Positions 241 to 41,068 of a stretch of 64,000 bases of DNA are shown piece by piece. How positions within the stretch are numbered: the stretch's first letter is position 1; each line of letters begins with the position of its first letter. The notes under the pieces are model-generated. The model made no database searches. It worked only from the letters and a program-made list of their open reading frames with translations, and was not told the origin of the DNA. The translations under genes and the position numbers were made by a program. The stretch spans positions 1 to 64,000 of the forward strand of contig CALRDN010000005.1 of the NCBI GenBank assembly GCA_943354965.1, read 5' to 3'. The stretch is from Candidatus Peribacteria bacterium (GTDB lineage Bacteria > Patescibacteriota > Gracilibacteria > UBA1369 > UBA12463).

Positions 241-837
241 TTAATTGTACTGATTCATTGCTGAGGCCATTCCTTCCTTTAAGGCTAGTTCGATGGCCTT
301 TGCTCCATTTTGAATGCCTAATTCAATAACTGACTTTTCCTTGTCGGTGAATCTGCGGAGGACGAAGTCGCTGGTGTTCATCTGCTCAGGGACGCCGAAC
401 TCCTCTCCCCTGCTCTCAATGCCGATGCGGAGACGTGGGAAGGTTTTTGAGGGATAGAGCTCTTGGATAGATTTCATGCCGTTGTGTGTGCCTGCAGAGC
501 CGTCTTTGCGGAGGCGGATTTTGCCGAGTGGGAGGTCGAGATCGTCATAGCAGACCCAGAGATTTTCCGGTTCAATTTTGTAATAATTTGTCACCAAAAC
601 AACTGCTTCACCTGAAAGGTTCATGAAGGTGGTTGGTTTTACGAGGATGACATTCTTGGAATTGAACTCACCCTTTGAGATAAAGGCCTTGAGGGATTTT
701 TCTTCTTTCCAGTCTGAGGTGCTCCAGTTTTTTTGGAGTTCATCTACGAGCGTGAAGCCTGCGTTGTGGCGGGATCCTTCATACTCTTTGCCGACATTAC
801 CGAGTCCGACAATGATTATTTTTTGATTTTTTTCCAT
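241..837 (-). CDS. pth: Peptidyl-tRNA hydrolase
   Basis: The 198-residue protein has the Pth family length and motifs: GLGNVGKEYEGSRHNAGF near the N-terminus (the Asn and the general-base His, about N14 and H24), KPTTFMNLSG and YDDLDLPLGKIRLR. It cleaves the ester of peptidyl-tRNAs that drop off ribosomes, recycling tRNA in the cytoplasm. Its ATG lies inside the 3' end of obg (22-nt overlap), so the two genes are probably translationally coupled. The end is followed by a 120-nt gap and rplU. Nothing about the protein is unusual. Confidence 0.95.
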   Translation of the reverse strand: MEKNQKIIIVGLGNVGKEYEGSRHNAGFTLVDELQKNWSTSDWKEEKSLKAFISKGEFNSKNVILVKPTTFMNLSGEAVVLVTNYYKIEPENLWVCYDDLDLPLGKIRLRKDGSAGTHNGMKSIQELYPSKTFPRLRIGIESRGEEFGVPEQMNTSDFVLRRFTDKEKSVIELGIQNGAKAIELALKEGMASAMNQYN

Positions 838-32473: not shown

Positions 32474-32548
32474 CGCGGGGTGGAGCAGTGGTAGCTCGCA
32501 AGGCTCATAACCTTGAGGTCGGTGGTTCGAGTCCACCCCCCGCAACCA
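32474..32548 (+). tRNA. Initiator tRNA-fMet (CAT)
   Basis: Anticodon loop CTCATAA gives CAT. The acceptor starts with C and the opposite base is A (CGCGGGG with CCCCGCA), the C1-A72 mismatch that marks the formylmethionine initiator. The discriminator is A and CCA is encoded. The anticodon stem is CAAGG/CCTTG, so two of the three G-C pairs next to the loop are kept and the third is A-T. Confidence 0.95.
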
Positions 32549-32603: not shown

Positions 32604-32879
32604 ATGTCATTTTTTGTTTATATCCTTCGTTGTAATGATTCGACCCTTTATGTTGGATCCACAAACGACATTGTGCGGAGGTTGTATCAGCATAATAATT
32701 TGAAATCCGGGGCGACCTATACGAAGGGACGGCGACCCGTGACGCTTGTTTATTTTGAGAGCTTTAAGACGTTTAGAGAGGCACATCAAAGAGAGTATGC
32801 GCTCAAGTGCTTAACGAGGGAGGAGAAGTTGAAAGTGGTGGCAGGAGTGGGAGTTGAACCCACGACCAACGGCTTATGA
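32604..32879 (+). CDS. GIY-YIG nuclease-like protein running into an antisense tRNA
   Basis: A 91-residue UPF0213/YhbQ-type protein. It starts MSFFVYILRCNDSTLYVGSTNDI (GIY-YIG strand pair as VYI and YVG) and continues to YFESFKTFREAHQREYALKCL, the normal end of the family. The last 15 residues are translated from the opposite strand of the neighbouring tRNA gene (32836-32910), so the original stop seems lost. Stand-alone members have been linked to DNA processing, but a role here is not known. The start follows the family; longer frames reach back toward tRNA-fMet. Confidence 0.7.
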   Translation: MSFFVYILRCNDSTLYVGSTNDIVRRLYQHNNLKSGATYTKGRRPVTLVYFESFKTFREAHQREYALKCLTREEKLKVVAGVGVEPTTNGL

Positions 32880-32910
32880 GTCCGCTGCTCTACCACTGAG
32901 CTACCCTGCC
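32836..32910 (-). tRNA. tRNA with CAT anticodon (elongator Met or Ile2)
   Basis: The acceptor GGCAGGG pairs with TCCTGCC, ending in A and CCA. The anticodon stem-loop CGGAC-TCATAAG... gives loop CTCATAA, anticodon CAT. G1-C72 pairs normally, so it is not the initiator. It could be elongator tRNA-Met or tRNA-Ile2 (CAT modified to lysidine); sequence alone does not decide. It lies tail-to-tail with the GIY-YIG gene and overlaps its last 44 nt. Confidence 0.92.
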
Positions 32911-40557: not shown

Positions 40558-40651
40558 TTTGATGAATTTGCCACTATAAAATTCATGATTTTGCTGTTCT
40601 ATGTCAGCTTTTTGTTAGATCCATGGTGTAGCGTTGTAATTACCAGATTCC

Positions 40652-40722
40652 GGGGGTTTGCCGGTGCACTCACTGGACTCGTCATTCCAGTGATACGGGT
40701 TCGACTCCCGTAACCTCCACCA
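40652..40722 (+). ncRNA. 71-nt tRNA-like RNA resembling the acceptor domain of tmRNA
   Basis: The acceptor stem GGGGGTT (40652-40658) pairs with AACCTCC (40712-40718), including G3.U70, then discriminator A and an encoded CCA. The T arm is ACGGG TTCGACT CCCGT. Instead of normal D and anticodon arms there is an 11-nt stretch and an 8-bp stem, TCACTGGA/TCCAGTGA, with an 8-nt loop CTCGTCAT. G3.U70 plus A73 is the identity set of alanyl-tRNA synthetase in tRNA-Ala and tmRNA. The layout equals the tRNA-like domain of tmRNA (no D stem, P2-like helix) without tag frame or pseudoknots. It may be a degenerate or specialised tmRNA relative. A strong terminator 16 nt downstream supports a real gene. Confidence 0.6.
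40668..40683 (+). repeat. 16-nt direct repeat, copy inside the tRNA-like RNA
   Basis: ACTCACTGGACTCGTC covers the 5' strand of the internal stem and most of its loop. An identical copy lies at 40779-40794, 111 bp downstream and beyond the terminator. Confidence 0.7.
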
Positions 40723-40737
40723 GTCTGGGAGACGAAG

Positions 40738-40774
40738 AAAAAGAGCTACCTAAACAGTTAGGTGGCTCTTTTTT
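40738..40774. terminator. Strong bidirectional rho-independent terminator
   Basis: AAGAGCTACCTAA (40741-40753) pairs over 13 bp with TTAGGTGGCTCTT (40758-40770), one G-T pair, loop ACAG, flanked by A and T runs on the two sides. It can end the tRNA-like RNA on the plus strand and the glyS operon on the minus strand. Confidence 0.88.
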
Positions 40775-40778
40775 GGGA

Positions 40779-40794
40779 ACTCACTGGACTCGTC
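40779..40794 (+). repeat. 16-nt direct repeat, copy beyond the terminator
   Basis: Identical to 40668-40683. On the minus strand it lies in the 3' untranslated end of the glyS operon, between the DUF2164 stop (40814) and the terminator, so that mRNA would carry a perfect 16-nt complement of the tRNA-like RNA. A small palindrome (TGCTAT-T-ATAGCA) follows at 40797-40809. Confidence 0.7.
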
Positions 40795-40813
40795 GGTGCT
40801 ATTATAGCATATA

Positions 40814-41068
40814 TTATTTATTCTTCAAAAGATCTATATCAATCTCGAGGTTCTCGGCGTTCTGCCTAATAGTCATTTTGGCATCCTCGATAGCCCTATT
40901 ATACATATCCTTCGAGAGAGCCTCCTGGAAAAAATCTAGGATTTCCCCAGCGGCCAGCATGCCAATCTCCTCACCTCTTTCTTTTTCGAAGTAGGTTGTG
41001 ATTTCTCTGATGAAGCCTGAACGCCTTTCTTTGCTTAAGATATCACACTTTCGTTTAATGGTTGCCAT
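40814..41068 (-). CDS. DUF2164 family protein
   Basis: An 84-residue helical protein. The pattern ILSKERRSGFIREITTYFEK, EIGMLAAGEILDFFQEAL and YNRAIEDAKM is characteristic of DUF2164, a small family of unknown function. The start is taken at the ATG at 41068, where the family begins; another ATG four codons upstream (41080) abuts the previous stop. It is the last gene of the dtd-glyS operon before the bidirectional terminator. Confidence 0.75.
   Translation of the reverse strand: MATIKRKCDILSKERRSGFIREITTYFEKERGEEIGMLAAGEILDFFQEALSKDMYNRAIEDAKMTIRQNAENLEIDIDLLKNK

Follow-up and report, generated by a model that had tools for sequence, protein, structure and literature searches.

Alanine-type tRNA mimics and cognate antisense RNAs in Candidatus Peribacteria: a possible RNA-only toxin-antitoxin module

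Several described systems stand close to the locus reported here. In the type VIII system SdsR/RyeA of E. coli, both the toxin and the antitoxin are RNAs (PMC6610125), and in CreT/CreA an RNA toxin aimed at tRNA function is held in check by RNA (PMC8501985). The tRNA-like domain of tmRNA (RF00023) is an alanine acceptor with a G3.U70 pair, a T arm, a reduced D arm and no anticodon. The tRNAOther of Bacillus cereus is a pseudo-tRNA working outside translation (PMC3399842), and the YUNR U-turn has been described in loops that serve antisense recognition (PMC4485353).

The window analysed here, a stretch of 64,000 nucleotides from a Candidatus Peribacteria genome (contig CALRDN010000005.1), carries a predicted pair of RNAs which matches no described family and may be categorically new. 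As in SdsR/RyeA, two small RNAs come from one place and one is predicted to neutralise the other, and the type VIII pattern of two RNA partners from one locus with specific pairing can be predicted from the sequence. However, SdsR belongs to the ordinary regulatory sRNAs and overlaps its partner fully in cis, whereas the partners here do not overlap, with a tRNA mimic of alanine type as the sense RNA; unlike SdsR/RyeA, the module also occurs in three layouts and in many orthogonal copies. CreT, a tiny mRNA, sequesters a rare tRNA, and its partner CreA acts together with Cascade; here the toxin candidate is itself tRNA-like, and no ORF or CRISPR repeat was noticed in the module sequences read. 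The plan of the tmRNA domain is shared by the sense RNA, but the tag frame and pseudoknots are absent, a complete tmRNA is encoded elsewhere and there is an antisense partner. In comparison, tRNAOther has a Trp anticodon and lies inside a larger regulatory RNA, with neither a cognate antisense gene nor a multi-copy family of this plan described. The likeness to RNAI, CopA and Sok is the recognition of a YUNR loop by a free antisense 5′ end or loop (PMC4485353), although those RNAs act on mRNAs or replication primers and the predicted target here is a tRNA mimic.

Judged by its fold, its Rfam tRNA score and family covariation, the mature sense RNA spans positions 40652–40722 on the plus strand. 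Its acceptor stem (40652–40658/40712–40718; GGGGGTT/AACCTCC) includes G3.U70 and is followed by A73 at 40719 and CCA at 40720–40722, and the T arm (40695–40711) reads ACGGG-TTCGACT-CCCGT. The middle consists of 11 nt and an 8-bp stem (40670–40677/40686–40693) capped by the 8-nt loop CTCGTCAT (40678–40685). An earlier note on this DNA had described the acceptor, G3.U70, A73, CCA and T loop correctly, and family covariation agrees with that fold. It had also stated that the D and anticodon arms were missing; the 11 nt and the 8-bp stem are indeed there, but the former are a mini D hairpin (TGC-CGGT-GCA, 40659–40668) including GG, and the latter is an elongated arm sited where the anticodon arm belongs. 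The GG of the D loop contacts the T loop in tRNA.

The acceptor, T arm and CCA are thus those of a tRNA in the sense of RF00005, under which the window copy scores 35.6 bits (gathering score 29); a normal D arm, a 5-bp anticodon stem with a 7-nt loop, the linkers and the variable region are absent. ARAGORN made no call at 40652–40722, and none of eight further family members compared with Rfam attained any gathering score. Since the isolated fold gave only a modest gain over shuffled sequences (z −3.0), it is taken as real on the strength of the family covariation. Two alternative candidate promoters precede the RNA on the plus strand: an extended −10 element TGTTAGATC at 40613–40621, aligned with that of the family, and TTGTTA-17-TGTAAT at 40612–40640. 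A leader CCAGA (40643–40647) complements a trailer TCTGG (40724–40728), giving a stem that flanks the mature RNA, and this pairing is kept in the family, with a leader-trailer run of at least 5 bp in 75% of members against 18% of mismatched controls.

The window’s genome (G000; 1.16 Mb, estimated 100% complete) holds four copies of the tRNA-like RNA, at the window locus and on contigs C1, C2 and C18, and ordinary tRNA-Ala genes are also present. A first covariance model, built from seven copies, was searched across the order; one loop base was removed from 72-nt members for model building only, MAFFT having mis-registered them. With the count limited to short matches (up to 73 nt, plus one 74-nt member), at least 83 copies were found in 29 of the 59 genomes of the order, one to six per genome, so the lack of conservation in relatives that the earlier note would have counted against its reading did not occur. 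Covariance search also found the RNA in other classes of the phylum, the occurrence there being a lower bound because 17 candidates were scored per genome. The tRNA-like RNA is a member of a large undescribed RNA family, no description of which was found in open-licence papers.

Over 82 aligned members the covariation score was 0.698 against 0.180 in shuffles, none of 500 shuffles being as high, and 94.7% of the paired cells were complementary (99.5% in the acceptor stem, 97.8% in the T stem). The D-loop GG was present in all 92 members and the mini D hairpin in 74 of them, compared to 24% in shuffled centres. The elongated arm measures 8–9 bp in many members and 6–10 bp in most, its loop 7–9 nt, and the linkers and variable region are missing in many. 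A U-turn motif YUNR occurs in 53/82 loops against 33% of shuffled ones.

The alanine-type signal, which the earlier note had read from a single sequence, extends to the family: position 3:70 is G-U in 81 of the 82 aligned members, and A73 and G2-C71 occur in all 82, with G4-C69 in 53. Pairs 4:69 to 7:66 of the acceptor change freely by compensation beside the near-fixed 3:70. Search bias as a cause of this conservation was ruled out by a control model with 3:70 masked, which gave 16 new matches, namely one ordinary tRNA and 15 further members. Thirteen of these 15 had G.U and A73 as aligned; the other two had them after a one-base register shift, one with U1-A72. The tRNA-like RNA carries the sequence determinants of the bacterial alanine identity set, which comprises A73, G2-C71, G3.U70 and G4-C69 (PMC9976931). 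The claim that G3.U70 and A73 are under selection is well supported by this comparison, and with a selected alanine identity the sense RNA is probably alanylated by AlaRS.

The loop sequence ACTCACTGGACTCGTC occurs a second time, as an exact copy, at 40779–40794 on the plus strand (two matches against 0.07 expected), where it would be the template of the 5′ end of an antisense RNA. The predicted gene, of about 59 nt, lies at 40736–40794 on the minus strand, its extent following from promoter and terminator: the RNA would begin 5′-GACGAGUCCAGUGAGUU and run into a bidirectional intrinsic terminator at 40738–40773 (arms of 16 nt with 94% complementarity between them, flanked on both sides by T runs) common to both convergent RNAs. 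Its promoter, TTGAAG-16-TATAAT with a TG before it, is located at 40801–40828 on the minus strand, its TATAAT seven bases away from the loop copy, and the 6-nt spacing places the antisense start on the first pairing nucleotide, 40794, which pairs with a C near the 3′ side of the tRNA-like loop. Nucleotides 1–16 of the antisense are the exact complement of 40668–40683, a stretch made up of 5′ arm and loop sequence. In all four copies of this genome the loop sequence is repeated downstream, past a two-strand terminator, and followed by a minus-strand −10 box. The earlier note was right to describe a free-standing tRNA-like RNA, but it did not see the exact loop copy, the terminator or the minus-strand promoter of the window locus; the pairing of every copy in this genome with a cognate antisense gene alters what the RNA probably means.

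The arrangement recurs across the family, almost all copies having a dedicated antisense gene nearby. The longest loop copy within 200 nt reached at least 10 nt at 65 of 92 loci, in comparison with 1.6% of 552 mismatched controls, and at least 12 nt at 51 of 92 loci against none of the 552. Among the 65 loci, 42 are convergent, 14 tandem and nine divergent (with the antisense upstream); the layouts differ by lineage, whereas the antisense product is one and the same. Tandem loci have their own promoter, the reverse complement of the loop on the same strand, complements of the D arm or acceptor and a terminator. An exact TATAAT precedes the antisense start at 33 of the 65 loci, compared to 2.5% in shuffles, and its modal spacing of 6 nt again implies that transcription would start at the first pairing base. 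The antisense promoter is near consensus; in front of the tRNA-like RNA, exact −10 matches were no better than background, and the extended −10 was enriched (31/92 vs 12%).

The predicted pairing is also specific. Of 89 loci, 49 had a better duplex energy than any of the 40 controls from mismatched loci, and the cross-talk tables drawn up for G000 and G001 show the cognate tRNA-like RNA as the best partner of every antisense. The pairs within one genome are mostly orthogonal; between L005 and L006 cross-talk is not negligible (−26 to −27 vs −35 kcal/mol), and the duplex test for L005 is modest by itself (z −2.6, one of 40 controls equally good). Antisense RNAs often complement the D arm or acceptor of their own tRNA-like RNA as well. 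No antisense match was found within 300 nt of L036, L065 and L090; at L034, L079, L084 and L095, which have no long loop match, the antisense candidates complement the acceptor ends instead. The three layouts, all yielding one product, establish a cognate RNA pair as far as sequence allows. As a separate observation, the antisense candidates of L007, L034, L077, L079, L084, L095 and L096 contain segments complementary to the CCA end and to the strands of the acceptor, and resemble a degenerate tRNA-like copy with its middle replaced.

We read the two RNAs as a module in which the antisense RNA would neutralise an alanine-accepting tRNA mimic, an RNA-only toxin-antitoxin system resembling type VIII, and give this reading a probability of about 0.5. 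That it represents a new kind of module, with an anticodon-less alanyl-tRNA mimic as toxin and a loop-capturing antisense, in orthogonal copies in Patescibacteria and also on viral contigs, is held at slightly less than even odds. Pairing and alanine identity are well supported, comparison between loci arguing for both RNA genes, a selected identity and cognate, specific pairing, while the toxicity of the free sense RNA is what we infer.

The first RNA would be a minimal tRNA mimic with an alanine acceptor, an elbow of GG and T loop, CCA and an elongated arm with a loop of 7–8 nt, probably loaded with alanine by AlaRS. The second would be a short antisense, transcribed from a consensus promoter, whose first nucleotides bind its own partner at the loop and along the 5′ strand of the arm and, in many loci, at the D arm or acceptor ends too, leaving the mimic unable to fold or act. 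When free, the mimic might be stable and harmful, most likely as a faulty alanyl-tRNA that ties up AlaRS, EF-Tu or the A site of ribosomes, and the antisense would serve as its labile antidote. Such a module could be used for stress arrest, defence or self-maintenance; at the few loci checked, no consistent defence or mobile gene neighbours were found.

The toxin-antitoxin reading draws on the orthogonal copies, the patchy distribution, the structured sense RNA, the strong promoter of a short antisense and a single locus that has decayed by losing its sense RNA. A consensus antisense promoter facing a weak or regulated tRNA-like promoter is the asymmetry expected of an antitoxin and a toxin. 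The decay case is L012 (G000:C7:9547 and on), upstream of murA, where the 5′ half and loop run straight into the antisense promoter, as though the 3′ half and terminator had been deleted between direct repeats and the antisense promoter kept; the genus mate G003 has a complete module at this place (L016/L022). If the reading is true, one of the least understood bacterial phyla has a dual-RNA system that puts a tRNA mimic, its alanine identity intact, under the control of its own antisense, with up to six module copies in genomes of about 1 Mb. It predicts charging by AlaRS, growth arrest and the swapping of loops between pairs.

The main rival, which we consider rather unlikely, takes the tRNA-like RNA as devoted to donating alanine in a reaction outside the ribosome, e.g., that of a FemAB-type peptidoglycan transferase, with the antisense only tuning its amount. 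An alanine identity without decoding would suit such a role, and pseudo-tRNAs working outside translation are known (PMC3399842). Moreover, a FemAB gene (G000:C2:127842–128867) ends about 100 nt upstream of the tRNA-like RNA L004 (128975–129046), FemAB occurs in 54 of the 59 genomes of the order, and the L022 copy sits upstream of murA. However, no FemAB lies beside the other copies, the module is present in G043 (94% complete) although that genome lacks FemAB, and many FemAB-positive genomes yielded no tRNA-like RNA. The partnership is therefore suggestive at one locus, while adjacency and co-occurrence fail across the order. A housekeeping role also needs no multiple copies with mutually orthogonal antisense partners. 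A search of the genome for RqcH (NFACT) as another partner gave no match.

Less probable still is a reading in which the antisense is the effector, regulating in trans, and the tRNA-like RNA soaks it up, as tRNA-fragment sponges do. The antisense would indeed present a free seed at its 5′ end, right at the transcription start. Yet the loops of paralogs differ and diverge together with their antisense, so that no common mRNA target is expected, and a sponge would not need the nearly invariant G3.U70 and A73, nor an antisense that often complements the acceptor or D arm of its own tRNA-like RNA.

AlaRS ignores the anticodon. A decoding role, in which the loop acts as an anticodon (often NGU or NGA) and alanine is inserted at Ser, Thr or Val codons as regulated mistranslation, would be compatible with this property, and part of the family has 7-nt loops with U33- and A38-like bases. 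It is nonetheless quite improbable: loops of 7–9 nt on arms of 6–10 bp in most members and the frequent lack of linkers and variable region speak against it, the triplets vary widely, and the C that follows the triplet is more readily accounted for as the pairing partner of the G with which the antisense begins.

The earlier note had named a relic of tmRNA among several options. An origin as a remnant or fragment of tmRNA, or a role in ribosome rescue without an anticodon, would account for the plan of the tRNA-like domain, the alanine identity and a weak, partial match of 32.9 bits with RF00023. This is very improbable, and the relic is rejected, since a complete ssrA lies in the same genome (C2:79705–80143, 92.6 bits), as the note had proposed to look for. 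A full tmRNA model did not fit across the locus either: the RF00023 match and the 12.9 bits obtained with the permuted model RF04321 both lie below the cut-offs of 47, and neither a tag reading frame nor pseudoknots are present. The many diverged copies with a flanking design and antisense partners of their own also argue against a relic. Finally, the loop copy could hardly be a duplicated DNA target or attachment site belonging to a mobile element instead of an RNA gene; direct repeats do flank the RNA 3′ half and terminator in the convergent layout, but this is ruled out by the tandem copies, inverted on the same transcript strand behind their own promoter, by the upstream copies of divergent loci, by a −10 box at fixed spacing and by three layouts giving one product.

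A 19-nt box, AAAAATAGCAACAATTATT, occurs in five exact copies in G000, before three intact tRNA-like RNAs, one relic and comM. The box loci are L011 (G000:C7:5090), L012, L017, L018 and L020, and it is also located upstream of L004, L006, L007, L015, L016 and L019. It often precedes the tRNA-like RNA in the genus, and in genus mates it is found ahead of secreted-protein genes as well. That the box is part of the tRNA-like RNA was rejected, since it precedes comM and other protein genes too. Because they have the box in common, the tRNA-like RNA seems to belong to a small regulon with comM and the secreted-protein genes, perhaps linked to competence.

A generic DNA pattern run over genome and viral contigs also matched ordinary tRNAs of short length and tmRNA 3′ ends, and its raw counts were therefore set aside. 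With a strict pattern, RNAs of similar plan with G3.U70 appeared outside Patescibacteria in, among others, Ruegeria intermedia, Parvibaculum, Acidobacteria and Acidimicrobiia MAGs. The same plan, with G3.U70, a D hairpin with GG and an elongated arm, was seen in Ruegeria intermedia (L242, NZ_FQVK01000014.1, 3295–3366) and, likewise outside Patescibacteria, in L155 (3310–3381), L203 (5554–5624), L138 (3547–3617) and the Acidimicrobiia loci L176, L165 and L195. These mini tRNA-Ala-like RNAs often lie just past a terminator, mostly without an adjacent antisense copy, and several of those in Acidimicrobiia have a conserved loop in common. The viral contig L304 (IMGVR_UViG_3300044698_000441) carries at 560–630 (minus strand) a tRNA-like RNA with a tandem antisense, whose 16-nt complement stands behind TATAAT, and this module adjoins a TnpB/IS605 OrfB-like gene; L311, L340 and L356 are more viral contigs with the tRNA-like plan. 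If homologous, such RNAs in other phyla and on viral contigs hint at a wider hidden class, and those without an adjacent antisense would fit poorly with an RNA that is always toxic. Elsewhere in the window, two tRNA-Met genes face each other about 290 bp apart, at 32474–32548 on the plus strand and 32836–32910 on the minus strand.
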